A stretch of 64,000 nucleotides of DNA from Serratia sarumanii (GTDB lineage: Bacteria > Pseudomonadota > Gammaproteobacteria > Enterobacterales > Enterobacteriaceae), in contig NZ_CP124750.1 in NCBI RefSeq assembly GCF_029962605.1, positions 3,224,001-3,288,000 on the forward strand, written 5' to 3'. The translations under genes were made by a program, and so were the position numbers. Positions 4,741 to 38,318 of the stretch are shown here, piece by piece. The notes under the pieces are model-generated. The model saw nothing but the letters and a program-made list of their open reading frames with translations, did no database searches and was not told the origin of the DNA. Every line of letters begins with the position of its first letter. Position 1 is the stretch's first letter.

Positions 4741-5626
4741 TGCCGTCCACCTTCTCGAAGATATCGCTGCCGATAGCGCTGTGCAGGGAGAGGTTTTTAA
4801 TCGCGATCTGCTGCTTTTTCATGATCGCGCCGGCGTGTCGAAAAGCGGGGATCACCAGCGACGCCACCTTGTCCGCCAGGAACGTCGGCAAGCGATCCTG
4901 CTCGGTTTCGTAAAAGCGCGGCTGGTGGAAGTTGTTCATGTCCAGTCCGGCGATAAACAGCTGCTTGAAGCCGAGATAGGCGATGATTTGCAGCGCCCAA
5001 TAGGCCACGGTGCCGGCATCGAAAATGCCACAGCGGATATCCTGGCTGAAGCCGAGCGTGCGGTTCGCGATGCAAAACTCCACCCCGTTTTCCCGGCAGT
5101 AGTGATCCCACAGCGCGCCGCTGTCGATCCGGGGACGGTAAATCTTGCAGGCCGCGTCTTCGACAATCGCCAATCGGCAGCCGATCGCCGCCTGTCCAAA
5201 ACGATCGAGAATGCGCGCCACGCCGTGCACGGTGGTGAACAGCGTCAGCGCCGGCCGTTGAATGACATCGCGCACGATCTCCGGGCGGTTATCGATAAAC
5301 CCCATGTCCACGATGACGTAGAAGTGAAAATCCACCTGCCGATGCAGGCAATAGGCGCCGTTGACCCCGATCGCGGGCATGGCGGGAATATTTTCGAAAC
5401 GCAGCGCCTTCACCGACGGGCCGGTAGCCGTCAACAACGCCGGCCCCCGGCAACTGTTGCGCAGTTCGCTCAGCGGGACGATCGGCACCGGCCGGTGCTT
5501 GTACCATAAGGCGGCGATTTCACCGCCCTCGCCGCGCGCAATCTTCACGTAGGGCCAGAGGTTTTCGTTATGCCGATAAGGGCGCGCGTGGGAATAGCGG
5601 TAGATCTGCTTAAAAAAAGAGCCCAT
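4718..5626 (-). CDS. Putative LPS core biosynthesis protein (RfaZ/DUF115-like)
   Basis: 302-aa soluble protein, no signal peptide. An N-terminal LLTATGPSVKAL segment (about residues 65-76) resembles the nucleotide-sugar-binding GPS loop seen in WaaZ and DUF115/MptE-like glycosyltransferase-type folds. It is the first gene of a minus-strand pair with the O-antigen-ligase-like gene (23-bp overlap), which suggests an LPS-core function. I do not recognise the exact orthologue; transferase activity is an inference. Confidence 0.6.
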   Translation of the reverse strand: MGSFFKQIYRYSHARPYRHNENLWPYVKIARGEGGEIAALWYKHRPVPIVPLSELRNSCRGPALLTATGPSVKALRFENIPAMPAIGVNGAYCLHRQVDFHFYVIVDMGFIDNRPEIVRDVIQRPALTLFTTVHGVARILDRFGQAAIGCRLAIVEDAACKIYRPRIDSGALWDHYCRENGVEFCIANRTLGFSQDIRCGIFDAGTVAYWALQIIAYLGFKQLFIAGLDMNNFHQPRFYETEQDRLPTFLADKVASLVIPAFRHAGAIMKKQQIAIKNLSLHSAIGSDIFEKVDGNVYFQQA

Positions 5627-5930
5627 GGTGGCGATGTCCTGTCCAGAGTGCGTGACGATACCTACAGAGGCATCTTTCTGTATGCTCAGAATTTAAAAAC
5701 GTGTCAGCACTGGCCAGGCCGCACAGCGAGTATCTAAATATTCGTTTAGTGAGGCAATTTTTGTAATTTGAATTATTAGTCAGCGTAGCGGCAAGAAATG
5801 TGTCGAAGTGTTATTTGAATGAGGAACTGTTGCCGTGCGTAAAAATACCGTGAATGGCGGCAGCGCCGCCGCTTGGCATTGATGGGGTTTTGTTATAACG
5901 TATCATAACTTTAGCCAAAGGAAGACGACG
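5627..5930. other. Intergenic region, 304 bp
   Basis: Divergent promoter region between the LPS pair (minus) and the small Cys-rich gene (plus). It is AT-rich around 5690-5800. No gene is supported here. The plus-strand end holds the Zur-like palindrome at 5891-5905 and an AAGGAAG ribosome site before 5931. Confidence 0.6.
5891..5905. promoter_or_regulatory. Zur-like operator upstream of the Cys-rich exported protein
   Basis: TGTTATAACGTATCA; its complement TGATACGTTATAACA agrees with the enterobacterial Zur pattern TGTTATAnTATAACA at 11 of 14 fixed positions. It ends 25 bp before the ATG at 5931, where a repressor would block transcription or initiation. The same motif recurs only at 35222 and 35435 in this window. 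Assignment to Zur is by pattern match only. Confidence 0.5.
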
Positions 5931-6173
5931 ATGAAAATCCAGCTGTCGCTGCTGTTTCTCTGCCTGCTGGCCGGTAAGGCCGCGGCGTTTCAGTCGAAAG
6001 TGCCCGAACCGCGCCCGGAACAGGCGCGCGCGGCGGAACAAAACATCGAAAATCTGTTTTACGGCTTTCACGCCATGGACGCCCAGCCGGTGAACATCGG
6101 CAGCTGCGCGGCGGTGCCGGTGGCGGGATGCCAATGCGCGTTCTGCACCCAGCTGCGGCAGGCCGGGCGCTGA
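5931..6173 (+). CDS. Small exported Cys-rich protein, unknown function
   Basis: 80 aa. Residues 1-19 form a clear Sec signal peptide (basic start, hydrophobic core, AAA cleavage region). The mature part of about 60 residues has four Cys: C59, then a CQCAFC cluster at 67-72, plus H47, a pattern suited to binding zinc or another thiophilic metal, or to forming disulfides. AAGGAAG lies 8 bp before the ATG. A Zur-like palindrome overlaps its promoter. I do not recognise a family; a periplasmic zinc-binding role is a hypothesis. Confidence 0.75.
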   Translation: MKIQLSLLFLCLLAGKAAAFQSKVPEPRPEQARAAEQNIENLFYGFHAMDAQPVNIGSCAAVPVAGCQCAFCTQLRQAGR

Positions 6174-6192
6174 GCCGCCCCCCTTATTCAAT

Positions 6193-6825
6193 TCAACTCA
6201 GCGCATACTGCACGATCAGCTGCCCCTTCTTCATCTTTACGCCGGTGATAGCGATCGCGCCCACCTCGCCCAGCGTGGCGACATGGGTGCCGCCGCAGCC
6301 GTAGGCAGGCAGTTCGCCGAAACCGACCTGCCGCATCCCGTCCACCGCCTGTTGGCGGCGCGGCAGATCGGCGGCGATCAAGCGCGCCAGCTCCGCCTGC
6401 AAAAAGTCCGCTTCTATCGTCTGCGCATCCGGCCCTGGCGCGAACGTGATGCGCCCCTCCCCCGGCCAATGATGCGCCTTGACCGGCCGCCACCCCCGGC
6501 TTTCGCCCAGCCAACCGATCAGATGCCCACCGGAGTGCCAGCGGGCGTGCAGCCGACGCTGCGCCTCATCGATTTGCAGCGTAGCCGGCCCGATCGGCAG
6601 CGGCGCGGCGGTAAAGTGCAGCACGGTATCCCCCTGCTGCTGCACCCGCAGCACGGCGACGCCGCCTAACGTCCCCACGTCGGACGGCTGGCCGCCGCCC
6701 TGTGGGTGGAACAGCGTGGCGTCCAGCTCTACGGCGTAGGCGCCCGCCTCGGCCGGCGTACAGCTCAACACCTGCGCCTGGCCCTGTACATCGTCGCTGT
6801 AGTAATAACGTCGTTCGGTCATCAT
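6193..6825 (-). CDS. Alanyl-tRNA editing protein AlaX
   Basis: 210-aa free-standing homologue of the AlaRS editing domain, which hydrolyses mischarged Ser- or Gly-tRNA(Ala) in the cytoplasm. The Zn site is visible as HSGGH (about residues 97-101) and the CGGTH pair near 178-182. The N-terminal half (YYYSDDVQGQAQVL) begins the AlaX beta-barrel domain. It converges on the small exported protein with 19 bp between stops and diverges from the LysR gene at 6908. Confidence 0.88.
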   Translation of the reverse strand: MMTERRYYYSDDVQGQAQVLSCTPAEAGAYAVELDATLFHPQGGGQPSDVGTLGGVAVLRVQQQGDTVLHFTAAPLPIGPATLQIDEAQRRLHARWHSGGHLIGWLGESRGWRPVKAHHWPGEGRITFAPGPDAQTIEADFLQAELARLIAADLPRRQQAVDGMRQVGFGELPAYGCGGTHVATLGEVGAIAITGVKMKKGQLIVQYALS

Positions 6826-6907
6826 TTTTCTCCTCGGTTCGAAGAGCCATTATATTCATGTCATAATCGATGGATAATCCGCCGTCATCACAATGGACCT
6901 TTGCGCC

Positions 6908-7843
6908 ATGAGCACAAATCTTTCTTACGCGCTGTTGCCCGAAATGGCCGTTTTCGTTCAGGTGGTAGAGAGCGGCAGCTTTTCCGCCGCCGCCCGTAAA
7001 CTTGGCACCTCGCCTTCCGCCGTCAGCCGCAGCGTGGCAAGGCTCGAACAGGCGCTGGCGCTGCAGCTGCTGCACCGCACCACCCGCAAACTGCGGCTGA
7101 GCGAAAGCGGCGAAGAGGCGTATGCGCACTGCCGCACCCTGTTGGCGGCCGCCGATGCGGTTATGGCGATCGGCGGGCGCGGCGCCGCGGAGCCCGAAGG
7201 ATTGGTCAGCGTCAGCGTGCCCAAGGCGGTGGGGCGCTTCGTGCTGCATCCGCACATGCCGGAGTTCCTGCGCCGCTACCCGAAGGTGGACGTGCGGCTG
7301 CGGCTGGAAGATCGCTACATGGATCTGATCGACGATCGGGTCGATCTGGCGCTGCGCATTACCGATCGCCCATCGCCCGGGTTGATCGGCCGCCAGTTGA
7401 TGAGAATAGACCATCTGCTGTGCGCCACGCCGCACTACCTGGCGCAGCACGGCACGCCGCAGCACCCGCACGATCTGGCGGCGCACAGCTGCATCTATCT
7501 GGGCGAAACGCCGAGCGACGCGCAATGGAAGTTCCGCCGCAGCGGCAAAACGGTGACGGTCAACGTGCGCGGCCGCTACGCCGCCAACCACACCGGCGTG
7601 CGGCTGGACGCGGTGAAACAGCATATCGGCATCGGCAGCCTGCCGTATTTTACCGCCCGCCAGGCGCTCGACGACGGCGAGATCGTGCAGGTATTGCCGG
7701 AATGGGATTTCCTCAGCAGCTATCACGGCGGCCTGTGGTTGCTTTACGCGCCTAACCAGTATCTGCCGCCCAAACTGCGGGTGTTTATCGACTATCTCGT
7801 CGCCTGCCTGGCGCAGGAGCCGCAGCTAAAGCGCCTTGCGTAG
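6908..7843 (+). CDS. LysR-family transcriptional regulator
   Basis: 311-aa LysR regulator. The HTH spans about residues 10-65 (SFSAAARKLGTSPSAVSRSV) and is of the AaeR/DsdC-like 'FVQVVESGSFSAAAR' type; the remainder is the effector-binding domain. The ATG at 6908 places the HTH normally; a longer in-frame start adds only five residues. It is divergent from alaX (82 bp), its probable target, and its 3' end overlaps the convergent alkB by 18 bp. Confidence 0.87.
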   Translation: MSTNLSYALLPEMAVFVQVVESGSFSAAARKLGTSPSAVSRSVARLEQALALQLLHRTTRKLRLSESGEEAYAHCRTLLAAADAVMAIGGRGAAEPEGLVSVSVPKAVGRFVLHPHMPEFLRRYPKVDVRLRLEDRYMDLIDDRVDLALRITDRPSPGLIGRQLMRIDHLLCATPHYLAQHGTPQHPHDLAAHSCIYLGETPSDAQWKFRRSGKTVTVNVRGRYAANHTGVRLDAVKQHIGIGSLPYFTARQALDDGEIVQVLPEWDFLSSYHGGLWLLYAPNQYLPPKLRVFIDYLVACLAQEPQLKRLA

Positions 7844-8473
7844 CGTGATGTTGATGCGGTGCGGCCCCACCAACGAGTGATAGCCTTCCTTGACCGGCAG
7901 GATGCCGTGAAAACAGAGCCGCGATGGGCCGCCCCACACCACCACGTCGCCGTGCGCCAGCGGGATGCGCCGCGCCCGGTCGCTGCGTTGCAGGCCGCCG
8001 AACTGAAATACCGCCGGCAGCCCGAGCGACACCGAAACGATGGGTGCGCCGAAGTCGTGCTCGTCTTTATCCTGATGCAGCGACAGCTTGCTGCCCGGAT
8101 CGTAACGGTTCATCAGGCAGGAATCCGGCACGAAGCGGCCGAAGCCCGCCTGCTGCGCGGCTTCGTCCGCCAGCGCCATCAGGATCGGCGGAATGGCCGG
8201 CCAGCGTTTGCCGCTGCGCGCGTCGCGTTCCGAATAGCGGTAACCGCGGCTGTCGCTGGTCCAGCCGTTGCCGCACCAGCTCATCGCCACCGACATCACG
8301 TGCCCGCCGGGCGTGGTCAAATGCCGCCACGGCACCTGGGCGACGACGCCCTGCACCGCAGCCAGCAATTCAGGCCCGTGATCGCGCACGAAGCCGTGCA
8401 TCACCACCGCGCCGGGGGCGATCTCTTCGCGCCACGGCGGCGGCAGCGCGTCTTCAAAAAGATCGATTGTCAT
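7826..8473 (-). CDS. alkB: Alpha-ketoglutarate-dependent DNA/RNA demethylase AlkB
   Basis: 215 aa, against 216 for E. coli AlkB. Fe(II)/2-oxoglutarate dioxygenase that oxidatively removes methyl groups from 1-meA and 3-meC. The iron ligands are seen in LSLHQDKDE (HxD) and in the later His of CFHGILPV; the 2OG-binding arginines are in GPHRINITLRK at the C-terminus. The ATG at 8473 begins MTIDLFED, matching the family; an upstream in-frame extension is not needed. It stands alone here rather than behind ada. Confidence 0.92.
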   Translation of the reverse strand: MTIDLFEDALPPPWREEIAPGAVVMHGFVRDHGPELLAAVQGVVAQVPWRHLTTPGGHVMSVAMSWCGNGWTSDSRGYRYSERDARSGKRWPAIPPILMALADEAAQQAGFGRFVPDSCLMNRYDPGSKLSLHQDKDEHDFGAPIVSVSLGLPAVFQFGGLQRSDRARRIPLAHGDVVVWGGPSRLCFHGILPVKEGYHSLVGPHRINITLRKAL

Positions 8474-8606
8474 CGCCAAAACCTGTATGAATACACAGTA
8501 ATCATTGTAACCCGCCGCCGCCGATTGTCCAGCGCCCGGCAACGCCATTGTCGTTGGCGGCAAATTTCTCTACAGTAGCCGCCATAAAATCAATCACTCA
8601 CCAGGA

Positions 8607-9491
8607 ATGCGTGTGATTAAGGGCATCACTCTCTCGGTCGTCGCCTCCATCTTGTTCGGCGCGATGTATTACTTCACCTCTACCCTCACCCCGCTGAACG
8701 GCGAGCAGGTCTACGGCTGGCGCACGCTGCTGACGCTGCCGTTCCTGACGCTGTTCATGGCGCTGTCCGGCGATTGGCGCAAAGTGGGCGACACGCTGGG
8801 CTGGATCGGCCAACGGCCGCAGCGTCTGCTGGGCCTGCTGCTCACCTCGGCGCTGCTGGGGGTACAGCTGTGGTTATTCCTGTGGGCGCCGCTGCACGGC
8901 AAGGCGCTCGACGTATCGCTCGGCTATTTTCTGCTGCCGCTGACCATGGTGCTGGCGGGCCGTTTGATCTACCGCGATCGGCTGTCGCTGCTGCAAAAGC
9001 TGGCGGTGGCGTGCGCCATGGTGGGGGTGGGCAATGAGCTGTATCAGGCGGGCGGCGTCTCGTGGCCAACGCTGGTGGTGGCGCTGGGCTATCCGCTCTA
9101 CTTTATTTTGCGGCGGCGTTTCGGCACCGACAATCTCGGCGGGCTGTGGTGCGAGCTGGCGCTGATGCTGCCGGCGGCGGCCTGGTTCGCCTTCGGCGAC
9201 GGCGGCGCGGCGGCGTTGCCGACCAATGCCGAGCTGTATTGGCGCATTCCGCTGCTCGGCGTCATCAGCGCCGTGGCGCTGGTGTGTTACATCCTCGCCA
9301 GCCGTCTGCTGCCTTTCAGCCTGTTCGGCCTGCTGAGCTATGTGGAACCGGTGCTGCTGGTGATCGTCGCGCTGCTGCTCGGCGAGAGCATCGGCCAAAG
9401 CGAATGGCCAACCTATCTGGCGATCTGGCTGGCGGTGCTGCTGCTGGCGGCGGAAGGTGCGCAGCACCTGCTGCGCCGCCAGCGGGTCTGA
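8607..9491 (+). CDS. rarD: EamA-family permease RarD
   Basis: 294-aa inner-membrane protein of the drug/metabolite transporter superfamily with ten predicted membrane helices. The start (KGITLSVVASILFGAMYYFTS) and the GWR..LTLP segment are those of RarD, linked in E. coli to chloramphenicol sensitivity; its natural substrate is not established. Divergent from alkB; its stop is 1 bp from the stop of convergent entA. Confidence 0.88.
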   Translation: MRVIKGITLSVVASILFGAMYYFTSTLTPLNGEQVYGWRTLLTLPFLTLFMALSGDWRKVGDTLGWIGQRPQRLLGLLLTSALLGVQLWLFLWAPLHGKALDVSLGYFLLPLTMVLAGRLIYRDRLSLLQKLAVACAMVGVGNELYQAGGVSWPTLVVALGYPLYFILRRRFGTDNLGGLWCELALMLPAAAWFAFGDGGAAALPTNAELYWRIPLLGVISAVALVCYILASRLLPFSLFGLLSYVEPVLLVIVALLLGESIGQSEWPTYLAIWLAVLLLAAEGAQHLLRRQRV

Positions 9492-16867: not shown

Positions 16868-18376
16868 CTACTCCGCCACCTGATGCACCACGTCGATCAC
16901 CGAGCCGTCGCGGTAGCGCACCACCGCCACCACCTTGTCGGTAAAGGCGATCGGCTGCGGTTCGCCGGTCAGCTGCAGCGCACGGGCGCGCAGCCAGTCG
17001 ATGCTCACCACCTCGAGGCCGGCCTCCCGCAGGCGCTGCGCCAGCTCCGGCCGCGCCGGATTGACGGCGATGCCGTGGTCGGTCACCAGAATGTCGATGC
17101 TGGAGCCCGGCGTGACGCAGGTAGTCACCTGCTCTACCAGCGTCGGGATGCGCCCGCGCACCAACGGCGCAACGATGATCGCCAGCCGCGCGGCGGCGGC
17201 GGTGTCGCAGTGGCCGCCGGACGCGCCGCGCAGCACGCCGTCGGAGCCGGTCAGCACGTTAACGTTGAAGCCGGTGTCGATTTCCAGCGCGCTCAGCACC
17301 ACCACGTCGAGCCGATCGACCGACGCGCCCTTGGAGCTGAAGTTGGCGTACTGGTTGGCGCTGATTTCGATATGGCGCGGGTTGCGCGCCAGCGAGGTCG
17401 CCGCCGCCCGATCGAAGCTCTGCACGTCCAGCAGTTTGCCGATCAGCCCTTTCTCGTGCAGATCCACCATGGTCGAGGTGATGCCGCCGAGGGCGAACGC
17501 GGCGCGAATGCCGCGGGCGCGCATCTTGTCCTCCAGGAACCGGGTCACCGCCAGCGAGGCGCCGCCGGTGCCGGTTTGCAGCGAAAAGCCTTCGGTGAAG
17601 TAGCCGGAACCGGCGATCACCTCGGCGGCGCGGCGGGCGATCAGCAGCTCGCGCGGGTTCGAGGTCATGCGCGTGGCGTCGGCGCCGATCTTGTCGGCGT
17701 CGCCCACCCGCTCCAGCTGCACGATCAGATCCACCCGATCCTGCGCCAGGCTGGCGGGATGATGCGGATACGGCACCAGCTGCTCGGTCAGCAGCACCAC
17801 GGTGCCCGCCGCCTCGGCGTCCACCCGCGCATAGCCGAGCGAGCCGCAGCAGGCTTCACCGCTGTAACCGTTGGCGTTGCCGAACTCATCGCAGGCCGGC
17901 ACGCCAAGGAAGGCCACGTCTATCTTCAGCTCGCCGGATTCGATCAGGTTGACCCGGCCGCCGTGCGAGTGAATTTGCACCGGCTCCGCCAGCAGGCCGC
18001 GCGAAACCGCGTCCGCCAGCGGGCCGCGCAGCCCGGAGGTGTAAATGCGGCTCACCACGCCGTGGCGGATATGCTCAACCAGCGGCGCATGGCAGTCGGT
18101 CAGCGAGCTGGACGCCAGCGTCAGGTTGCGGAACCCCATCGCCGCCAGCGTCTCCATCACCTGATTGAGCGCCAGATCGCCGCCGCGAAACGCATGGTGG
18201 AAGGAGATGGTCATGCCGTCCTGCAGCCCGCTGCGGCGCACCGCTTCCTGCAAGGAGTCGCACAGCTTGAGATCGCGCGGTTTGCGCGCCTGCAGGTTGG
18301 CTTTGGAGACGTCCTGATAGCCCGGCAGATCCGCCGGGTTGGCGAAGGTCATCAATCGTTGTTGGCGGTTCATCAT
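16868..18376 (-). CDS. citF: Citrate lyase alpha subunit (citrate CoA-transferase)
   Basis: 502 aa. Exchanges the acetyl group on CitD for citryl. Typical blocks are FHHAFRGGD near residue 60, GGIT(S)[12 protein letters not shown] in the middle and [13 protein letters not shown] near the end. The ATG overlaps the citE stop (ATGA, with a double ATG start). Cytoplasmic; part of the (CitD-CitE-CitF)6 complex. Confidence 0.93.
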
Positions 18377-19293
18377 GCTTCCTCCCCGTGCTGCGCCGGT
18401 TCTTCCCGTAAGCCGGACAGCGCGGCGCGCTCCAGCACCAGCCGGGCGCGTTCAATCACCGGGCTGTCGACCATTTTTCCGTTGAGCGACACCACGCCGC
18501 GCCCTTCCCGCTCCGCCGCTTCGGCGGCGTCCACCACCCGCTGCGCGTGCGCCACCTCTTTGGCGGTCGGCGCGTACAGGTTGTGCAGCAGCTCAATCTG
18601 GCGCGGGTTGATCAGCGATTTGCCGTCGAAGCCGAGCTGTTTGATCAGCGCCGCTTCCTGCAGGAAGCCGGCCTCGTTATTGGCGTCGGAATAGACGGTG
18701 TCGAACGCCTGAATGCCGGCGGCGCGCGCCGCCTGCAGCAGCGAACAACGAGCGAACAGCAGCTCGATGCCCTCCGGCGAGCGTTCGGTGCGCAGGTTGC
18801 GCACGTAGTCCTCCGCCCCCAGCGCGATGCCGATAAGCCGCGGCGAAGCGTGCGCGATCGCTACCGCGTTGGTGATGCCCTGCGCCGATTCGATCGCCGC
18901 CAGCAGCCCGGTGCTGCCGACCGGCCGGCCGCAGGCCGCTTCGATGGCGGCGATCTCGCGTTCCATGTCGACAACGTCCTGCGCGCTGTCGGTCTTCGGC
19001 AGGCGCACGATGTCCGCGCCACCGCGCACCACCGCCTGCAAGTCCGCCAGGCCGTAGGCTGAGTCGAGCGCATTGACGCGCACGATGGTTTCCACCTCCT
19101 GGTACAGCGGGTGCTGCAGCGCGTGGTACACCAGCCGGCGCGCCGCGTCTTTTTCACGCAGGATCACCGAGTCTTCCAGATCGAACATCAGCGCATCGGC
19201 CTGGTAGATAAAGGCGTTGCTGACCATCGCCGCGTTGGCGCCGGGGACGAACAGCATGCTGCGGCGCAGCCGGGTTTTATTCAGCGTTTTCAT
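18373..19293 (-). CDS. citE: Citrate lyase beta subunit (citryl-ACP lyase)
   Basis: 306 aa. HpcH/HpaI-CitE TIM-barrel lyase cleaving citryl-ACP to acetyl-ACP and oxaloacetate. [14 protein letters not shown] opens the protein, MFDLEDSV carries metal and substrate residues, and [15 protein letters not shown] is the usual C-terminal block. GGAGG precedes the ATG at 19293 by 6 bp; it overlaps the end of citD by 17 bp. Confidence 0.92.
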
Positions 19294-29459: not shown

Positions 29460-30331
29460 CGCACGGCGACGTCGGCCAGCAGCGTCTCCGCCGCCAGCTT
29501 GCCGAGGTTGTTGGAAGCCAGCGGGCTGTCGCCGGTCAGCAGGCGCCGATCTTTATGCACCTTGCCGGTAATGTCGGCGTTAACGATCTTAACGCCCCGC
29601 TCGCGCAGGCGTTCGCCCACCAGCCAGGGCATCGGGCCGGGGATGTAGCCAATGTCGATGTTGGCGCCGGTATCGAGCGAGTCCGGGAACACGCACATTT
29701 CATAGCCACGATAGAGGAAATCCTCTTTGCTCTCGTCGATGCCCGCCGCCAGCAAACCGGCCGGCCCGTGGCACAGCGAAATCACGTAGCGATCGTTGTC
29801 GTGCGCCCAGTGCAGGGTCTTTTTCACCTCTTCGCTGAACGGGATATCATTCAGCACGCCGTGGCCGCCGGGGATGAAAACGCCGAGGTAGTTGCCGCCA
29901 TCCAGATCCTTCACCACCTCCGTCAGCTTTTTCGGCTGCTTGAGCTGGCTGCGGTACTTCTCGTAGGTGGCCTTGACCGCGTCGTCTTCCTGCGGGAACG
30001 CCCACATCTCCAGCTTCACCGGATCGCCGGACGGCGTGGCGATGTCGATCTCGAAACCGGCCAGATCCAGGTGATGCATCGGCAACAGCATCTCGACCGG
30101 GTGATTGCCGGTGGAGAAGAACTTGCCGTTTTGCATCAGCAGGTAGCGCTCCTGCGAGGCGATCATCAGCACCTTCCACTTGCCGCCGCGATAGGCGTTC
30201 GGGTAGCTGGCACCCGCGAAGTCGGTTTTGGACGAGGTGTACTGGCTGAGGGAGTAAGGTGATGGGAAGAACGCGTTGTCTTCCGCCACATCCGGGGTGG
30301 GATTACGATCGTTGGACACTGAATCAGTCAT
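29456..30331 (-). CDS. hchA: Hsp31/HchA-family glyoxalase III and protein/nucleotide deglycase
   Basis: 291 aa (E. coli HchA 283). DJ-1/PfpI superfamily. The nucleophile Cys is in [21 protein letters not shown] and the N-terminal extension with [12 protein letters not shown] are Hsp31 features. It detoxifies methylglyoxal and acts as a holding chaperone. The ATG at 30331 has GGAG 6 bp upstream; an in-frame start at 30349 lacks this. First gene of a two-gene unit with the LuxR regulator. Confidence 0.88.
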
Positions 30332-30432
30332 GATTATCTCCATATTCACCGTTGCGTTGCCCTTTCAGCTTAAATAACCGCCGGCGGGGCCGCAATGAGG
30401 GATATCCCTCAAGCAATCCTTGCAGCCGAAAC

Positions 30433-31200
30433 TCAGGCGAGATTGCGTAGAGCGATAATAAAGGTTTCTTCGCTGGCGCCCTGGTGTTCATAGCGGCATT
30501 TTCTGACCGGCACCCGGAAATAGCGCTCCAGGATATCTTCCCGCAGCACAGCGCTTTTAACGCCAAACAGCGACTGCCGTTTTGCCATCAGTAAACACTT
30601 GTCGGAGATGCGTTCGGCGTAATTGAGGAAATGCGTATTCAGCACGATCGTCATCTGCCGCTCTTTGGCGAGGCGCCACAGCATCTCGATCATTTTGGCC
30701 TGATTGTAAAAATCCAGATTCGATTCCGGTTCGTCGAGGATCATGACGTCGGGATCTGCCACCAGCGCCTTGGCGAAATAACACATCTGCAGTTCACCGC
30801 CGCTGATCTGGTTGATATTTTTCTGCGCCAGCGGCGCGATCTCCAGCGCGTGCAACACCGCCTGCGCCCTGGTGAAATCTTGCCGACGCGGCCCGGCGAA
30901 CCATCCCGCATGGCGGGCGCAGCCGAAAGTGACAAAATCGAGTACGCCATAGGAAAAATGTGGTGTTTTCGCCTGCGGCACGTAGGCCAGGCGCGCCTCT
31001 CGATTATCGACGCGGCCGATCTCGCACCTGCCGGCGCTGGGCCGACACAGGCCCGCAATATTTCTCAGCAGCGTCGTTTTGCCGGCGCCGTTCGGGCCCA
31101 GCACACTGAGGATCTCGCCGCGCTTAAGCTCGAAGCTGACGTTGTCGAAAATGGGCTCCCGCCCCTTGAAACCAAAGGCTAGCCGGCTAGCGGTGATCAT
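30433..31200 (-). CDS. ABC transporter ATPase, iron-chelate/cobalamin type
   Basis: 255 aa. Walker A GPNGAGKTTLLRN (about 35-47), ABC signature as ISGGEL (variant of LSGGQ), Walker B VMILDEPESNLD and H-loop LNTHFLN. FecE/BtuD-like class. Its start overlaps the permease gene by 14 bp. Last gene of a five-gene operon (MFS, lipoprotein, binding protein, permease, ATPase) behind a Zur-like box. Substrate not known; a zinc or other metal chelate is inferred. Confidence 0.88.
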   Translation of the reverse strand: MITASRLAFGFKGREPIFDNVSFELKRGEILSVLGPNGAGKTTLLRNIAGLCRPSAGRCEIGRVDNREARLAYVPQAKTPHFSYGVLDFVTFGCARHAGWFAGPRRQDFTRAQAVLHALEIAPLAQKNINQISGGELQMCYFAKALVADPDVMILDEPESNLDFYNQAKMIEMLWRLAKERQMTIVLNTHFLNYAERISDKCLLMAKRQSLFGVKSAVLREDILERYFRVPVRKCRYEHQGASEETFIIALRNLA

Positions 31201-32197
31201 ATCGATTCCCCAGAATAAAAAGCACCGCGAAAAGCGGCGCGCCGATCAGCGCGGTCAGGATGCCGATTGGAATTTCCGTATAGGTGGCACCTCTCGCAAT
31301 ATTGTCGATAACCAGCAAAAACAACGCGCCGCCGATCGCCGATGCTGGGATCAGGCGGCCGTGGTTATATCCCAGCACGCTTCGCACCAAATGGGGGATC
31401 ACCAAGCCAACCCACCCCACCACGCCGGCCAAACTCACCGAGGCGGAAACCAGCAGAGAGGCGGCGATCAGCAATAGGATCTTCAGCCGGGGCGGATTCA
31501 GGCCGGCAATGCGCGCCTCGTCGTCCCCCAGCGAGAGAATGTTCATGTTCCACCTGAGCCGGTAGATAGTCAGGTAACACGCCGCAAACAGCGGGATCAG
31601 CCAATAGACCTGCGCTTTCGCCACCGAAGCGAAGCTGCCCATCAGCCAGAAGACAATGGCAGGCAAGGTATCCTGCGGATCGGCGACATATTTGATGGCC
31701 GAGACAAACGCGATAAACACCGACGCGATAATCATGCCGGACAGGATCGTCGTCAGCGCATCCTGCCGGCGTTTCAGGCGGCAAATGCCAAGCACCAGCA
31801 ACAAACTCACCACGCCGAAAAGAAACGACAGCAGGGAACTCAGGGCAAAAGGCAAACTCAATAAAATGCCCAGCGCGGCACCAAAGGCGGAGGCGGAAGA
31901 CGTGCCCAGCACGTCCGGGCTGGCTAACGCGTTTTTCAGCACCGCCTGAAAGGTCGCGCCGGCGACTGCCAACCCGCCGCCCACCAGCATCACCGCCACC
32001 ACCCGCGGCGCACGCAGGTTAAAAATCACCGAATAGTGGGCCTGGTTTTCCCCCGGCATGTTCCCCTGCCATAAAATCAGCAGCACGTCATGGGCCGACA
32101 AGGCGTAACGGCCGGCAAACAGTGATGCGACGGCAACCACACACAAGGCTAAAAACAGCCCTACCATGATCGCCATATATTTTCCTCTGCCCGGCAT
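31187..32197 (-). CDS. ABC transporter permease, FecCD family
   Basis: 336 aa with about nine to ten membrane segments. Family marks are LRAPRVVAVMLVGGGLAVAG, SPDVLGTSSASAFGAALG and GLVIPHLVRSVLGYNH (the coupling-loop region). The start at 32197 has AGGAGGAG 7 bp upstream; a longer frame starts at 32218 but lacks this. It follows the binding-protein gene by 42 bp. Confidence 0.88.
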   Translation of the reverse strand: MPGRGKYMAIMVGLFLALCVVAVASLFAGRYALSAHDVLLILWQGNMPGENQAHYSVIFNLRAPRVVAVMLVGGGLAVAGATFQAVLKNALASPDVLGTSSASAFGAALGILLSLPFALSSLLSFLFGVVSLLLVLGICRLKRRQDALTTILSGMIIASVFIAFVSAIKYVADPQDTLPAIVFWLMGSFASVAKAQVYWLIPLFAACYLTIYRLRWNMNILSLGDDEARIAGLNPPRLKILLLIAASLLVSASVSLAGVVGWVGLVIPHLVRSVLGYNHGRLIPASAIGGALFLLVIDNIARGATYTEIPIGILTALIGAPLFAVLFILGNRYDHR

Positions 32198-32239
32198 CCC
32201 CAAGCTCCTCCAACCCACTAACGCAATTCAACCGTGGTG

Positions 32240-33316
32240 CTAGCGCTGTGCCAGCACCTCATCCAACAAACGGTCCGGGATCGCATAGGAGAACATCGTC
32301 TGATAATAGCGGCGCGTCTCCTCCCGCAGCGTCTTGTCGCTAATGTCTTCAGGGGCATAGCGGTTGATCATAAACAGCGGCAGCAGTGACGTTTCCGCCG
32401 ACAGGCCCCCCCAGTTATGAATGCCCATCGGCGTCGAGAAAACCTTGCCGTTTTTTACCGCCCTGAGCGTCTCCCAGGCCTGGCCGGGGATCCCCCCGTG
32501 CAGCAGCGCTTTAGCGCTGCCGAAAACCACGAAAATCACATCCGGGTCCCAGGCCATGATCTGCTCCATCGAAACGTTGATGTACCTGCCGGCATCCCCT
32601 TTCACCGGCAAATCCCCGGCGACGTTGTCCATGCCGGCCATTTTCAGGTAGGTGTCGCCGTAGGTATGCGGGCCGCTCACCTTCAGCTGCCTGCCGTCGC
32701 TTTCTTCGAGATACAACGCCCTGACGTGCTGCGCGCGGATGGCTGCGGCATAGGGGCGGATCTGCTTCAGGGTCTTTTCCCAGGCATCTTTGAATTTGTG
32801 CGTGCGCGGCAGGCCGAGCGTGTCGGCGAAGGTATTTTCCCAATACATCTGGGTGACCATCGGTTGGTACTTTGTCTTCCCGCCGGCATCCAGATCGACG
32901 GTCATCACGCCCGCCCTTTCCAGCCGATCGTCCTGGCTTTTGCCGTAGTAATAAATAATGTCGGGCCGTAGATTCATTAACGACTCCATGTTGACCCGGT
33001 AGTCCTTATTGATGAAGGCGGAGGTGATCCTGCCGATGTCAGGCTTCATGTCCTTCAACACATGCATATCGGCATGCATGAACGCCCAGGGCCCCACGCC
33101 GACGACGTGCCGGTAGGCCGCCTCGTTCGCCAGGATCACGCCGAAGGGGCAGTTGCCGGTGATGACGATCCGCTGATAGTGGCCAGGCAACTTTTGCACC
33201 GCTGCGCTCTGCGGCCGTTCGGCCGCCGCCGGCTGACTGCCGCTGGCGCAAGGCGCCGTCGGCAAGGCGAATATTGCCAGCAGCGCGGTGGCGATAAATT
33301 TCACTGTGACGCACAT
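32240..33316 (-). CDS. ABC transporter periplasmic metal-chelate binding protein
   Basis: 358 aa. Sec signal peptide (about 1-25) without a lipobox, then a two-lobed FecB/BtuF-like fold: RIVITGNCPFGVILANEA opens the N-lobe, LRPDIIYYYG and WDPDVIFVVFG are the typical 'xxPDxV' strands, and a C-lobe follows. AGGAGG is 4 bp before the ATG at 33316. Usual clients are ferric siderophores, haem or cobalamin; Zur-like control here argues for a zinc chelate, but no ligand residues identify it. Confidence 0.83.
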   Translation of the reverse strand: MCVTVKFIATALLAIFALPTAPCASGSQPAAAERPQSAAVQKLPGHYQRIVITGNCPFGVILANEAAYRHVVGVGPWAFMHADMHVLKDMKPDIGRITSAFINKDYRVNMESLMNLRPDIIYYYGKSQDDRLERAGVMTVDLDAGGKTKYQPMVTQMYWENTFADTLGLPRTHKFKDAWEKTLKQIRPYAAAIRAQHVRALYLEESDGRQLKVSGPHTYGDTYLKMAGMDNVAGDLPVKGDAGRYINVSMEQIMAWDPDVIFVVFGSAKALLHGGIPGQAWETLRAVKNGKVFSTPMGIHNWGGLSAETSLLPLFMINRYAPEDISDKTLREETRRYYQTMFSYAIPDRLLDEVLAQR

Positions 33317-33362
33317 GGTGCCTCCTGTGCGCACGCTCGGCGGCGTGCGGCGATGGGCTGCG

Positions 33363-33761
33363 TTAGGCCGACGCGGCGATGCCGGCGGCCATGATGGTTA
33401 TCCCGGCCACAAAGACGATTGCCGTGGTGGCGACCGCGCCGCCGCCGACCAACGCGGCGGTTTTTCCTGTGGAAAGGTCTTTTCGTTGCAGGAAAGAGAG
33501 CTGCGACAGGGGAATGATTTTTCCGCTGTCGGCGACCAGGTCTTTCGGTTCAACCTTCGCTACCGTCAACTCGCCGCCGCTGCCGTCCTTCAGACCATAT
33601 TTCAACCGGTCGCCGACATAGACCGGCGGCTGCAGCAGGTAATATTGGCTATTGAGCCCCGTCTCTTTTTGTTGCAACGCCACGTCGTGGTAGGTCGTGC
33701 AGCCGGCAAGGGAAAACGCCGCCATGCCGATAACCAACGGTACTAATGGGATAAATCGCAT
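33363..33761 (-). CDS. Small lipoprotein of the ABC/MFS operon, unknown function
   Basis: 132 aa. Signal peptide with lipobox LAGC (Cys about 21), a 75-residue polar middle, and a C-terminal hydrophobic Gly/Ala-rich helix (about 103-130) that could insert in a membrane. No recognised family. It lies 16 bp after the MFS gene and 46 bp before the binding protein, so it is part of the same transcript; GAGG precedes its ATG. Confidence 0.75.
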   Translation of the reverse strand: MRFIPLVPLVIGMAAFSLAGCTTYHDVALQQKETGLNSQYYLLQPPVYVGDRLKYGLKDGSGGELTVAKVEPKDLVADSGKIIPLSQLSFLQRKDLSTGKTAALVGGGAVATTAIVFVAGITIMAAGIAASA

Positions 33762-33777
33762 GGGAAACCTCGTGCTT

Positions 33778-35148
33778 CTATTTACTGGTTTTTAACGTAA
33801 CGGCGGACTTGAAGCGCATATAGCTCACGACCAGAGAAAGGAACGAGAATGCCGCCCCCGCCATTAAACTGATGTTCGTCGCTTGCGCACCCCGCATGTT
33901 GAAGAAAATCGCCACCAACGCCGAACCGACGATTTGCCCAATCAGCCGGGAACTGCCCAACAGGCCGCTGGCGATGCTGCTGTTTTCATGGGAGACCGAC
34001 GTCATGATCAACAGGTTGTTCGGTGATTGAAACAGGCCGAAACCGATGCCGCACAGCGCCACGCGCCATACGATCGCCCCATTCGACGGATCGCTCGGCA
34101 GATTGGCCATCAGCAGCATGCCTGCCAGCAGACAGGCAAGGCCCGAGAGGGCAACAAGATTGGGATCGTACTTCTTGGCCAAATCGCCGGAAATTAGCGA
34201 AGACGCCATGGTGGCCAGCGGCCAGGCGGTCAGCAACAGACCGATTTCCACCACGTTTCTTTGCAGAACGTTGTGAAAATAAAAAGGCAGCGAAACATAG
34301 GCCAAAAGCTGGGTGCTGTAGGACAGCATCGACATCAGCAAAGACAATGACAGCGTCGGGTTATGCAGCATCGCGATCGGGATCAGCGCGGCGTCGGCCT
34401 TTCTTTTTTGATTGATGTACAGCAACCCGGCCAGCCCGGCGAATACCGCAAAGCTCAGCGCCGCCGCCGGCAGATGGTGAGTGGTCATGCTCATGGTGCT
34501 GAGCGAGAAAGCGATAAACAGCACAAACACCAACAGGGCGCCCCCGCTGTCGAACCCAACGCTGCGCCGCTCGCGGGAACCCAGGAATATCACGCTCAGC
34601 AGCAGCGACAGGCAGGCGATGGGAACATTAATGGTAAACAGCCAGTTCCAGCTCGTTTGAGAAAGTATCGCCGAGGCGATGGATGGCCCGGCGGCGGCGG
34701 AAACCGACACCACCATCACGTTTATGCCCAGGCCGCGCCCAAGCAGCCTTGCCGGGTATATCTCCTTGATCAGCGCCGCATTGACGCTGAGCACCGCCGC
34801 CGCGCCGAAGCCCTGTATCACCCTGAATGCCGTCAGCATCTCCAGCGTCGTGGACAGCGCGCAGCCCAGGGATGAAAAAGCGAACAGCACCACCCCGGCC
34901 ATAAAGATTTTTTTATTGCCCACCGCGCGGCCCAGCGCCGCGAAGGGCATCAAAGAGGCCACGACGGCAAACTGGTAGGCATTAATAATCATGATGGAGG
35001 CCGATTCGGAAACGCCGAAATCTTTGGCGATCACCGGCAGCGCCACGTTGGCGATGGTACTGTCGAGCATGGCGATAACCGTGCTTAACGAGACGGCGAG
35101 AACGGCGAATATATTTAATGTCTCTTTTTCCTGGTGTTTAAAAGTCAT
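33778..35148 (-). CDS. MFS transporter, DHA2 (EmrB/QacA) family
   Basis: 456 aa, about 14 membrane segments. The DHA2 motif is near the start (MLDSTIANVALPVIAKDFGV, about 24-43), and motif A/C-like RVIQGFGAAAVLSVN follows. Proton-driven exporter of small molecules. As the first gene of an operon that ends with a chelate-type ABC importer, it could export a metallophore that the ABC system takes back, as in other metallophore loci; no biosynthetic gene is present. GGAG is 7 bp before the ATG. Confidence 0.85.
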   Translation of the reverse strand: MTFKHQEKETLNIFAVLAVSLSTVIAMLDSTIANVALPVIAKDFGVSESASIMIINAYQFAVVASLMPFAALGRAVGNKKIFMAGVVLFAFSSLGCALSTTLEMLTAFRVIQGFGAAAVLSVNAALIKEIYPARLLGRGLGINVMVVSVSAAAGPSIASAILSQTSWNWLFTINVPIACLSLLLSVIFLGSRERRSVGFDSGGALLVFVLFIAFSLSTMSMTTHHLPAAALSFAVFAGLAGLLYINQKRKADAALIPIAMLHNPTLSLSLLMSMLSYSTQLLAYVSLPFYFHNVLQRNVVEIGLLLTAWPLATMASSLISGDLAKKYDPNLVALSGLACLLAGMLLMANLPSDPSNGAIVWRVALCGIGFGLFQSPNNLLIMTSVSHENSSIASGLLGSSRLIGQIVGSALVAIFFNMRGAQATNISLMAGAAFSFLSLVVSYMRFKSAVTLKTSK

Positions 35149-35221
35149 GTTAACGCTCCAAAAACGTGAGTGACTTCATGCCGGCGGCAAAGACCCCGTT
35201 TTTTATCCGTTTTAGTAATTA

Positions 35222-35236
35222 CGTTATAACATATCA
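35222..35236. promoter_or_regulatory. Zur-like operator of the MFS/ABC operon
   Basis: CGTTATAACATATCA; its complement TGATATGTTATAACG matches TGTTATAnTATAACA at 11 of 14 positions. It lies 73 bp upstream of the MFS start, a normal operator position for the minus-strand promoter. Confidence 0.5.
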
Positions 35237-35434
35237 ATTAAAGAGGAAAATAAATCTCATTTGAAATATTAGATTAAATAGTGTGTCAAAATAAGAATTA
35301 ACAAATACAAAACAAATTAATAGCAATACGAATATTCAATAAACAAAATAAATGCAGTATAAAAAACCAGTGAATTTAAGGAATGACATTAAAAGTAACA
35401 GCCGCTAACAGACAACCCCGCTGGCGCGTGAAAT

Positions 35435-35449
35435 TGTTATGTTATAACA
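35435..35449. promoter_or_regulatory. Zur-like operator of amiA
   Basis: TGTTATGTTATAACA matches the Zur pattern TGTTATAnTATAACA at 13 of 14 fixed positions, the best of three sites in the window. It ends 18 bp (first possible start) or 33 bp (preferred start) before the amidase. Confidence 0.65.
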
Positions 35450-35482
35450 AAAACACCCTTTCCTTTTATGCTGGTTAACCTT

Positions 35483-36313
35483 ATGGCTAAGACGGACCTT
35501 TTGAACACCCGGTTATCTCGCCGCAGAATGATGTTGGCAGGGCTGGCGGCCCTGGCGCTGAACGGCGCCGTTTCCCCGCTGGCTCACGCCCACGGCCTGC
35601 CGCGCCCCAAACCTCAGGGGGCGCGAAAAAGATTCCTGGTCATGTTGGATCCCGGTCATGGCGGCATCGACTCCGGTGCCATTGGCCACACCGGTTCGCT
35701 GGAAAAACATGTCGTTCTGGCGATCGCCAGAAATGTGCGTGCACAGCTCGATCGACACGGCATCGATGCCCGCCTGACGCGCGACAGCGACGTTTTTATT
35801 CCGCTTTACGATCGGGTGGAGATCGCGCACCGGCACGGTGCGGATCTTTTCATGTCCATCCACGCCGACGGTTTTACCTGCCCCAGCGCCTGTGGCGCTT
35901 CGGTCTTTGCGCTTTCCAATAAAGGCGCCAGCAGCGCGATGGCGAAATACTTATCGAACAGTGAAAACGCGGCGGACGATCTCGCCGGCCCTAACGTCAT
36001 CAAGAAAGACCGCTATTTGCAGAAGATACTGTTTGATTTGGAGCAGACGGAAACGATCAAAGAAAGCCTGACGCTGGGCTCGCACCTGATTCAACATATT
36101 GCGCCCATTCATCATCTGCATGCCAAAAATACCGAACAGGCGGCCTTCGTGGTCTTAAAATCCCCGTATATTCCTTCCGTGTTGGTGGAAACCTCTTTCA
36201 TCACCAACCCTGAGGAAGAAAGGCTGCTCGGCACCCCCGCATTCCGAAATAAAATTGCCACGGCGATCGCTCAGGGGATCGTCAGCTACTTTAAACGCGA
36301 AACGCACGCTTAA
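35483..36313 (+). CDS. amiA: Tat-exported N-acetylmuramoyl-L-alanine amidase (AmiA-like)
   Basis: 276 aa. Periplasmic zinc amidase that splits septal peptidoglycan. A twin-arginine signal (LSRRRMMLAGLAALAL) is followed by an Amidase_3 domain: LDPGHGGIDSGAIG with the first Zn His, LEKHVVLAIA with Glu, FMSIHADGF with the second His, and SVLVETSFITNPEEERLL at the end. An in-frame ATG at 35468 is possible; neither has a strong ribosome site. Placed behind a Zur-like box; AmiA paralogues are known Zur targets in some proteobacteria. The porin gene follows after 54 bp. Confidence 0.88.
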   Translation: MAKTDLLNTRLSRRRMMLAGLAALALNGAVSPLAHAHGLPRPKPQGARKRFLVMLDPGHGGIDSGAIGHTGSLEKHVVLAIARNVRAQLDRHGIDARLTRDSDVFIPLYDRVEIAHRHGADLFMSIHADGFTCPSACGASVFALSNKGASSAMAKYLSNSENAADDLAGPNVIKKDRYLQKILFDLEQTETIKESLTLGSHLIQHIAPIHHLHAKNTEQAAFVVLKSPYIPSVLVETSFITNPEEERLLGTPAFRNKIATAIAQGIVSYFKRETHA

Positions 36314-36367
36314 GCTTCGCCGAGGCGGCAAGCTCACGGGCTTGCCGCGCACAGGGACGGTGTCATC

Positions 36368-37420
36368 ATGATAAAATGCAATCCGCGTTATTTTTCGGCG
36401 GGCATGCTTTTCCCCCTGCTGGCCCTATTACCACGCGGCGCCTTCGCCGTGTCGTTGACGGGGTCGCAGCAAAACAGCCTGAATTTCTACGGCACGATTA
36501 TCGCCAGACGCTACAGCGGCCAAAACGCGCGCGACGACGGCGACCGCAGCTACCTCTATTTCGGCCTGATAGGCAAAAAAAAGATCGCGCCGCGCTGGCG
36601 GGCCTACGCCCACTGGGAATATACCGTCAGCTTCGCCGACGCGACTCGCAACAGCACCCGACTTGCCTATATTGGGGTGCAAAACGCAACCTTCGGCAGC
36701 CTCGATATCGGCCGCAATTGGGGCGTGCTCTATGATGTGACCGCCCTGACCGATCGCTCTCCGCTGTTTAGAGAGATGGCCTACAACTACATCGACAATT
36801 TTATGCGCGGCCGGGCGCGTAACCTGCTCACTTACCGCCGCCCCTTCAGCCTGTTTCAGCGGCGCGCCGCACTCGCGTTGCAATATCAGTTCAAAGACGG
36901 CGACGACCGGCAAACGCCGGGCAAACAAAACGGCAACGGATTCGGCCTCTCCTTCCGTTATGCGCTGACGCCGACGCTCAGCCTCATCGCCGCCGCCTCG
37001 GCGTCTCAAACCACGCAGCGGCAACAACGCGCCGCCGGCTATCGCCGGCGCATCGATACGCTGGCTGAAGGAGCTCTCTATGCGTCGAAAAAAATCTATC
37101 TTGCGGCCGTGTTCACCCAAAGCGACAACGCCATCAGCCCGCAACAAACCGCTAACCGCGGTTCGGCGTCAAGTTATGAAGCGCTCGCCAAATATCGGCT
37201 GACGGACCATATTCAACCCAACATCGGCTATACCCGTTTGATACAGACCCGGGCAGGCCGGAACATGGACTTATTGAACTATGAGGAGCTGGGGGTCACC
37301 TGGTTGCTCAACAGCAATATGCAGGTGTTTATTAACTATGAATTCAATAACCTTTCGCAGCACACGCCCGGCGTCGATGCGTCGGACAAGCTCGATATGG
37401 GCATCAGCTATCATTGGTGA
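36368..37420 (+). CDS. Gram-negative outer-membrane porin
   Basis: 350 aa. Signal peptide (about 1-27), then an OmpC/OmpF-like trimeric porin barrel: SLNFYGTIIARRY as first strand, LAYIGVQNATFGSLDIGRNW with the eyelet region, a Gly/Arg-rich loop 3, and a C-terminal aromatic (SYHW). It lies 54 bp behind amiA with no terminator between, so it is likely in the same Zur-controlled unit and may raise zinc entry; that role is inferred. Confidence 0.82.
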   Translation: MIKCNPRYFSAGMLFPLLALLPRGAFAVSLTGSQQNSLNFYGTIIARRYSGQNARDDGDRSYLYFGLIGKKKIAPRWRAYAHWEYTVSFADATRNSTRLAYIGVQNATFGSLDIGRNWGVLYDVTALTDRSPLFREMAYNYIDNFMRGRARNLLTYRRPFSLFQRRAALALQYQFKDGDDRQTPGKQNGNGFGLSFRYALTPTLSLIAAASASQTTQRQQRAAGYRRRIDTLAEGALYASKKIYLAAVFTQSDNAISPQQTANRGSASSYEALAKYRLTDHIQPNIGYTRLIQTRAGRNMDLLNYEELGVTWLLNSNMQVFINYEFNNLSQHTPGVDASDKLDMGISYHW

Positions 37421-37439
37421 TCCGCTCTCCCGCAGCCAA

Positions 37440-37470
37440 TAAAAAGCCCCGCCCGGTGAAGGGCGAGGCT
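37440..37470 (-). terminator. Intrinsic terminator after the alpha/beta hydrolase
   Basis: On the minus strand AGCCTCGCCC / GGGCGGGGCT (one mismatch) with a 6-nt loop is followed by TTTTTA. It lies 18 bp past the hydrolase stop; the plus-strand porin mRNA may use the same hairpin. Confidence 0.8.
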
Positions 37471-37487
37471 CGCGACGCGTTGAGTCT

Positions 37488-38318
37488 TTAGCTGTTCACG
37501 AACGCCAGCAGATCGGCGTTGACCTGATCGGCATGGGTGGTCGGGATGCCGTGCGGCGCGCCCTTATAGGTATTGAGCGTGCCGTTTTGCACCAGCTTGG
37601 CCGACAGCACGCCGGAATCCTGATAAGGCACCACCTGATCGTCGTCGCCGTGGATCACCAGCACCGGAATGGCGATCTTCTTGAGATCTTCGGTGAAATC
37701 GGTCTGCGAGAAGGCGACGATGCCGTCGTAGTGCGCCTTGGCGCCGCCCATCATGCCCTGGCGCCACCAGTTCCAGATAATCGCCTCCGACGGTTTGGCG
37801 CCCGGGCGGTTATAGCCGTAGAACGGGCCGGCGGGCACGTCGTAATAGAACTGCGCCCGGTTGGCGGCCAGCTGCGCCTGGAAATCATCGAACACCGCTT
37901 TGGGGGTGCCCTGCGGATTGGCGTCGGTTTTCACCATCAGCGGCGGCACCGCGCTGATCAGCACCGCTTTGGATACCTTGTCCTCGCCGTGGCGCACGAT
38001 ATAGCGCACCACCTCGCCGCCGCCCGTCGAGTGGCCCACGTGCATCGCGCCCTGCACGCCCAGGTGTTTTACCACCGCGGCGACGTCATCGGCGTAGTGG
38101 TCCATGTCGTGCCCTTCCCACACCTGGCTGGAGCGGCCGTGGCCGCGGCGATCGTGCGCAACCACGCGGAACCCTTTGTTCACGAAGAACAGCATCTGGG
38201 CATCCCAGTCATCGCTGGACAGCGGCCAGCCGTGGTGAAAATAGATAACCTTGCCGTTTTTGGGGCCCCAATCCTTGTAGAAAATCTCGACGCCATCGCT
38301 GGTCGTTACGTAACCCAT
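37488..38318 (-). CDS. Alpha/beta hydrolase (non-haem chloroperoxidase-like)
   Basis: 276 aa. Full catalytic triad: nucleophile Ser97 in GHSTGGGE, Asp in HGDDDQVVP, His in GAPHGIP. HDRRGHGRS (about 55-63) is typical of the cofactor-free haloperoxidase/esterase group. A paralogue of the same length at 50343 lacks the Ser. Divergent from the aldehyde dehydrogenase. Confidence 0.87.
   Translation of the reverse strand: MGYVTTSDGVEIFYKDWGPKNGKVIYFHHGWPLSSDDWDAQMLFFVNKGFRVVAHDRRGHGRSSQVWEGHDMDHYADDVAAVVKHLGVQGAMHVGHSTGGGEVVRYIVRHGEDKVSKAVLISAVPPLMVKTDANPQGTPKAVFDDFQAQLAANRAQFYYDVPAGPFYGYNRPGAKPSEAIIWNWWRQGMMGGAKAHYDGIVAFSQTDFTEDLKKIAIPVLVIHGDDDQVVPYQDSGVLSAKLVQNGTLNTYKGAPHGIPTTHADQVNADLLAFVNS

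Follow-up and report, generated by a model that had tools for sequence, protein, structure and literature searches.

Under zinc limitation, zincophore systems such as pseudopaline/Cnt-Zrm and yersiniabactin import zinc chelates with the help of exporters, a TonB-dependent receptor and synthesis genes. The locus considered here lies at 30433-37420 of a 64,000-nucleotide stretch of Serratia sarumanii DNA (the window; main-contig positions 3224001-3288000, genome size 5.19 Mb). It is a seven-gene cassette in which an operon on the minus strand, coding for an MFS transporter, a small lipoprotein and the substrate-binding protein (SBP), permease and ATPase of an ATP-binding cassette (ABC) system, runs divergently from amiA2 and a porin gene on the plus strand, with a predicted Zur box in front of each operon (Table 1). 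Unlike zincophore systems, of which a table of Zur regulons lists the Pseudomonas aeruginosa entries zrmABCD (tonB-dR) and cntOLMI (PMC6103462), the cassette has a porin and holds neither a TonB-dependent receptor nor synthesis genes among the genes of 30433-37420.

Other described systems share single features with this locus. ZnuABC and AztABC are also Zur-boxed ABC importers, of zinc in their case and putatively here, although they are built from other SBP and permease families; the genome has ZnuABC/AztABC-type systems besides the cassette. The Zur-regulated AmiA of pseudomonads (P. aeruginosa PA14_73040 and that of P. fluorescens) resembles the product of amiA2 in its Zur control, predicted here, in the retention of its zinc residues and in its export by the twin-arginine (Tat) route (PMC2770081, PMC11753293). 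The available text of these sources calls the P. aeruginosa protein a homolog of E. coli AmiC, whereas the amidase of the cassette is an enterobacterial AmiA placed among transporters, and the AmiA of the P. fluorescens regulon stands with COG0523, DksA and other paralogs rather than in a transporter cassette. ShyB of V. cholerae and ZrlA of A. baumannii, the latter encoded beside znuA, are likewise Zur- or zinc-regulated cell-wall hydrolases, but they are endopeptidases/carboxypeptidase, and the accessible parts of the reports mention no porin-MFS-FecCD module (PMC6381278, PMC7554673). Porins tied to zinc homeostasis or Zur include MspD of M. smegmatis (PMC13098993) and OprD in the Zur-regulon table (PMC6103462), which belong to other porin families and organisms. 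All components except the lipoprotein have known relatives. A search of the literature, mostly open-access and without supplements, returned no recognisable description of this cassette or of its combination of genes, no Zur-boxed OmpC-type porin in Enterobacterales, and no Zur-boxed cassette borne by an integrative conjugative element (ICE). Judged by its boxes, the cassette belongs to the Zur regulon, and it lacks the defining features of ZnuABC and of the classical zincophores. It may work in the manner of classical zincophore clusters.

Zur boxes and their conservation

The Zur box has been described as a 23-bp element, GAAATGTTATA-N-TATAACATTTC, with the 15-bp core TGTTATA-N-TATAACA (PMC4219657, as far as its available text goes). 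The mfs/amiA2 intergenic region (319 bp, 31% GC) holds two palindromes of this kind. The one at 35435-35449, TGTTATGTTATAACA, matches 13 of the 14 fixed positions of the core and has no mismatch to the pattern TGTTATNNNATAACA; the one at 35222-35236, CGTTATAACATATCA, matches 11 of 14 and falls in the two-mismatch class of that pattern. In the whole genome, TGTTATNNNATAACA has 6 perfect matches versus 0 for a chance control in which the pattern was reversed but not complemented, and 11 (two of them overlapping) versus 5 at one mismatch or fewer. At two mismatches, the class of 35222, the excess is modest (97 versus 62). Given this modest excess, and a count within the window that is not significant, the mismatch counts back the box at 35435 but do not alone carry the weaker box at 35222, the case for which rests on position and conservation.

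A scoring matrix was built from five other zinc loci of the same genome, none inside the window; as the consensus had served to find these five sites in the first place, the matrix is not fully independent of it. Within the window, the matrix places 35435 (28.3), 5891 (22.8) and 35222 (21.7) on top, while the best score of the reversed window is 16.8; the overlapping register of box 35222 scores 20.3. The motif at rpmE2, at an AztABC-like zinc importer and at a zevA-like gene is among the best matches of the genome, and slightly weaker matches are carried by zinT (NF007639, 401 bits) and znuA/znuCB. The names rpmE2, znu and zev were assigned by eye, from sequence and known families. Zur itself is encoded in the genome (NF008646, 240 bits versus a cut-off of 167, over a 119-residue stretch).

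An earlier note on this DNA had proposed that Zur-type palindromes stand ahead of both divergent units, with only one further site in the window, near 5891. Coordinates, core matches, matrix and conservation agree with the first claim, and the second holds at the stringency of the matrix. The same note had named conservation of the boxes at orthologous loci as a point on which its proposal could fall, and the proposal came through: both boxes are kept in all 15 genome copies read, and one box in each of the four plasmid copies. The 15 include all 10 Serratia copies, two of which code for proteins just 60-79% identical, and all three copies from other genera taken from the genome scan. Across the 10 Serratia sequences, divergent copies included, 14 of the 15 columns of box 35222 and 13 of the 15 of box 35435 are invariant. 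Conservation goes beyond the boxes, given that the block at 35257-35268 matches no Zur box yet is as invariant as they are. The spacing from box to box is 213-214 bp in Serratia only; it is 335 bp in Citrobacter and Yersinia and 200 bp in Yokenella. A promoter scan found no promoter at the two boxes. Their positions, 18 bp before amiA2 and 73 bp before mfs, fit repression, and repression of both operons by Zur is strongly predicted.

Table 1. Features of the cassette and its borders (window coordinates)
Feature	Position	Strand	Evidence or remark
FecE/AztA-like ATPase of the ABC transporter, at the end of the minus operon	30433..31200	-	PF00005 4.8e-25; 48-92% identity across copies read
FecCD-type ABC permease	31187..32218	-	PF01032 2.9e-80; BtuC/FecD-like in NCBIfam, under cut-offs
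FecB/BtuF-type SBP, periplasmic	32240..33334	-	only PF01497 matched
Small lipoprotein, lipobox LAGC, beta-rich core, glycine-rich C-terminal stretch	33363..33761	-	
MFS transporter of DHA2 type, heading the minus operon	33778..35148	-	PF07690 6.7e-47; 58-98% in other copies
Zur box 1 (predicted)	35222..35236	.	73 bp to MFS start codon; palindrome registers overlap, offset by 5 bp
AT-rich block TCATTTGAAATA between the boxes	35257..35268	.	12/12 columns invariant, 10 sequences
Zur box 2 (predicted)	35435..35449	.	18 bp to first amiA2 start codon
AmiA2, N-acetylmuramoyl-L-alanine amidase, twin-arginine signal SRRRMML	35468..36313	+	NF007652 AmiA equivalog, PF01520
OmpC/PhoE-type porin, altered loop 3 TDRSPLFREM	36368..37420	+	PF00267 8.9e-48
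Terminator-like hairpin in the interval between the porin gene and a convergent hydrolase gene	37444..37471	-	11-pair stem, T tail
Extent of the inserted block	30415..37488	.	flanks 30201-30415 and 37488-37650 only 37 bp apart in cassette-free G023

Distribution and origin of the cassette

The cassette was found in 10 of 30 genomes of the genus, namely the window's own, seven with at least 93% SBP identity and two with 74%, and SBP and AmiA2 occur in one and the same set of 10; none of 167 other genomes covered by the same SBP search exceeded 36% identity. The nearest named relatives of the window's cassette are from Serratia. When the SBP alignment was scanned over one genome per species (84,980 species), 23 loci were obtained, of which 8 are close (at least 63% identity) and the remaining 15 reach at most 42%. 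The close loci belong to five Serratia, Citrobacter gillenii, Yersinia artesiana and Yokenella regensburgei. The three outside Serratia have the MFS, SBP, permease, ATPase, AmiA2 and porin genes in the same layout, with a box ahead of each operon; the lipoprotein was detected among them in Yokenella only, as a copy of 56% identity. Lipoprotein sequences fall into 11 protein clusters, 6 of them named, all six from Serratia.

A search of 72,556 plasmids with the SBP gave 103 matches, five of them close (Enterobacter/Klebsiella). The four of these that were read carry MFS-SBP-permease-ATPase opposite a porin gene and amiA2, in the order porin-amiA2, with a single box (score 20.5-27.7) between mfs and porin. 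Two of the four have an interrupted amiA2 gene, and the permease and MFS genes of the K. variicola plasmid copy look broken too. In E. coli the block occurs in 5 of 5,426 genomes, two of whose records share a strain name, and is 95-99% identical to the Citrobacter copy. In the two that were read, VirB-type transfer genes flank it on one side and a tyrosine integrase on the other: in YF-1 it lies beside tRNA-Asn, as expected of ICE cargo, and in A38 transfer genes and integrase are present, with the tRNA outside the stretch read. From this gene context, the E. coli copies read are cargo of an integrative conjugative element. Phage records gave no close SBP relative (2 of 50,697 records, at 22-25%). 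Judged by its gene content, the cassette is almost certainly a mobile functional unit.

The neighbours of two mobile copies may be recorded here. In the ICE of E. coli A38, transketolase, MFS, HAD, ketosynthase, acyl carrier and AfsA-type genes (L114:18446-24316) adjoin the cassette and form a possible small-molecule pathway. On the Enterobacter mori plasmid (L109), the cassette is flanked by a lasso peptide cluster (5160-9373) and, on the opposite side, by hipB/hipA (16950-18523).

In Serratia, the cassette is a discrete 7.07-kb stretch with hchA and the hydrolase gene as its direct neighbours, and its GC content is 56.9%, against 62.2% for the window. Five cassette-free Serratia loci were read (G003, G004, G023, G024 and G028). 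In G023 the two flanks meet as given in Table 1; at the site in G003 and G004 there is roughly 1.1 kb of other DNA, including a 38-40 bp piece that resembles window 37434-37473, and in G024 and G028 the right side differs. Because a piece like the right end remains in G003 and G004, loss of the cassette in some Serratia lineages is possible. In the tree, the 14 AmiA2 sequences used group together as a single clade (100/99). Closest to this clade stand the AmiA of E. coli and that of two genomes from other genera (joint support 99/100), and not Serratia's own AmiA. By this placement AmiA2 is foreign to Serratia, and a recent duplication of the Serratia AmiA is ruled out as its source. Mobility and foreign origin are points that the earlier note did not have.

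Predicted functions and competing explanations

AmiA2 scores 444 bits with NF007652 (cut-off 400) and has a PF01520 Amidase_3 domain. Its H/E/H/E site, which we take to be the zinc-binding and catalytic residues of the AmiA family, is retained in all 14 sequences aligned, as is the twin-arginine signal. With its zinc ligands kept, AmiA2 is no zinc-free substitute of the kind of DksA2 or PyrC2, and the idea of a spare amidase put forward in the earlier note is borne out. In the parts of the sources available, Haas and co-workers describe Zur-linked AmiA paralogs with intact zinc residues (PMC2770081), and the amiA of P. aeruginosa is zinc-repressed, Tat-exported, dispensable in vitro and an aid to colonisation of Galleria; its authors suggest that loading in the cytoplasm secures one working amidase (PMC11753293). 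By analogy, this logic may apply to AmiA2, and the chances that Tat loading is the reason for its presence appear evenly balanced.

The porin scores 163.9 bits with Porin_1 (cut-off 23.7) and stays under the OmpC, OmpF and PhoE cut-offs. Its loop 3 reads TDRSP(L/F)FREM in 8 of 8 cassette porins aligned and in none of the five other porins found in this genome (TDxxPEF). The cassette porins lack the glutamate of PEF, have acquired an arginine and, nearby, a different glutamate, and carry tyrosine in place of a strand arginine; the altered residues are presumably those of the constriction (E117 and R42 in OmpF numbering). OmpK35 likewise has no PEF. The plasmid lineage has a porin of a different type, related remotely at best to that in the window. 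This second type travels with the E. coli ICE (L113:26752-27831) and replaces the OmpC-type porin in the plasmid lineage (L109:10598-11875), the two copies being 62% identical; the ICE copy has no strong Zur box upstream (best 11.5). Since a porin of this other type sits with amiA2 opposite mfs on plasmids, a pore seems to be part of the design of the cassette. That the porin is a dedicated route across the outer membrane is plausible, at somewhat less than an even chance.

The Peripla_BP_2 SBP, FecCD permease and ABC ATPase together identify an importer of the FecBCD/BtuFCD type. The features of a ZnuABC-type system are lacking, as PF01497 is the one SBP match and the permease scores 270 bits with PF01032 versus 32 bits with PF00950. 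The fold of the SBP model (pLDDT 82.6) is nearest to an uncharacterised Veillonella protein, followed by the Haemophilus molybdate binder MolA, YiuA and CeuE, the last from Helicobacter and solved with Ni and Ni-His; haem binders (up to 20.1) and BtuF (up to 17.8) come lower down. A zinc complex as the imported substrate has a slightly better than even chance. The MFS protein falls in the EmrB subfamily (TIGR00711, 8e-52), under its cut-off, and a role as chelator exporter is less likely than not. The lipoprotein has no Pfam match, and its model is of low confidence (mean pLDDT 64).

We regard it as moderately probable that the locus is a mobile, Zur-repressed zinc-limitation cassette, in which a porin and an ABC importer would serve a small zinc chelate and a Tat-exported amidase would be over-supplied. 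With zinc present, Zur on both boxes would shut both divergent operons, which would open when zinc falls. The porin with the altered loop would pass a small zinc chelate across the outer membrane, the FecB-type SBP would capture it, and the FecCD permease and ATPase would carry it inward; the MFS protein would most likely export a chelator or a by-product, and the lipoprotein would be an optional helper. AmiA2 would acquire its zinc in the cytoplasm and pass through Tat in folded form, which would keep septal peptidoglycan splitting when periplasmic zinc is too low for Sec-exported amidases. That these functions are joined, as the earlier note had suggested, is backed by co-inheritance, with SBP and AmiA2 in the same genomes and the genes moving together across genera. 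Metal import and septal peptidoglycan cleavage would be tied in one co-inherited block, and with the cassette one could test directly why zinc-dependent cell-wall enzymes stand under Zur control. The degrees of confidence given for the components are judgements and not computed values.

A more far-reaching form of this explanation is put forward tentatively, as possible rather than probable: a TonB-independent zinc-chelate pathway would travel as one mobile part, the porin replacing the TonB receptor, the exporter recycling the chelator, FecB/FecCD importing, the cytoplasm-loaded amidase sustaining division, and the Zur boxes travelling along to use the Zur of each new host. If the cassette explanation itself is true, it would show that a zinc-withholding response can spread ready-made and self-regulated among Enterobacterales via chromosomes, ICEs and plasmids, and it offers a testable answer to how a zinc complex may cross the outer membrane without a TonB receptor.

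Several observations limit the case for the zinc-limitation cassette. In the window alone, 8 matches were counted at up to three mismatches against a shuffle mean of 5.0, and 9 of 100 shuffles reach 8; this is not significant, and such counting was dropped as an argument for the boxes. A matrix score is no proof: scores of 24.8 and 28.4 are reached at two places without an evident link to zinc, whereas the znu site itself, when left out of the matrix, scores 13.2. YiuA of Yersinia ruckeri, whose solved structure contains iron and part of a siderophore, ties with CeuE as a fold match of the SBP, and the modelled fold fits a small metal complex and does not select among zinc, nickel and ferric ones.

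One rival to zinc import is metal sparing under Zur, in which the ABC system would import a cobalamin, cobalt, nickel or ferric complex and zinc enzymes would be replaced or spared. The permease is nearest to BtuC (NF003001) and FecD, under their cut-offs, the fold list of the SBP has CeuE with Ni bound, YiuA as a binder of ferric siderophores, haem binders and BtuF, and a 2025 paper carries the title 'Cobalt mitigates zinc-starvation effects in Pseudomonas aeruginosa' (PMC13083405). We consider this explanation unlikely, though the foremost of the rivals.

An envelope-stress cassette, for which zinc starvation is a mere cue of the host environment, with MFS protein, porin and amidase tuning permeability and division and the importer secondary, is improbable. 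The EmrB/DHA2 grouping of the MFS protein, the action of both porin and amidase on the envelope, and the zinc-regulated ZrlA, which ties the wall to zinc in A. baumannii (PMC7554673, in its available part), are in its favour; the importer genes, however, are found in every copy read, even on plasmids that lack the original porin and have amiA2 broken in two of four cases, a retention qualified by the plasmid copy L110, whose permease looks broken as well. It is very improbable that the palindromes arose by chance or serve a different regulator, so that the cassette is not controlled by zinc. In favour of this are the AT-richness of the intergenic region, the further invariant block between the boxes and the non-significant counts in the window; against it, boxes persist in all genome and plasmid copies read while much intergenic sequence diverges, and the same motif stands at znu, zinT and rpmE2.

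Other Zur-like sites in the genome

At 5891-6173 (+) of the window, a Zur-like box starts 40 bp upstream of the ATG of an open reading frame whose 80-aa product is probably secreted and has the Cys motif GSCAAVPVAGCQCAFCTQLRQAG and no Pfam match. The region is present in 26 of 30 genomes of the genus, and a two-mismatch box, with its register shifted in some, precedes the open reading frame in 20 of 20 loci read. The protein is a candidate new Zur target.

A perfect Zur-type palindrome lies between ppiB and cysS, as named by eye (L073:4520-4534; G000:C1:1148519). This region is found in 30 of 30 genus genomes, and the strong box is kept in 25 of 26 loci read. This genome has no second copy of cysS; Zur control of the sole CysRS would be surprising, and ppiB is the other candidate target. 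Another perfect box (L076:5362; G000:C1:2995361) stands in the interval between a flavodoxin-fold gene and fliE, the latter named by eye, without an evident zinc link, and overlapping boxes (L077:4295-4314; G000:C1:2658294) precede a peptide ABC operon that is sapA-like by eye.

Two further perfect boxes precede transport genes. One (L074:5044; G000:C1:1283043) stands ahead of a gene for a TonB-dependent receptor, after which comes one for an EitA-like binding protein. The other (L075:5850; G000:C1:1347849) stands before an ATPase-SBP-FecCD permease operon that resembles F420-0/Eit transporters and looks like a second chelate-type ABC system under Zur.

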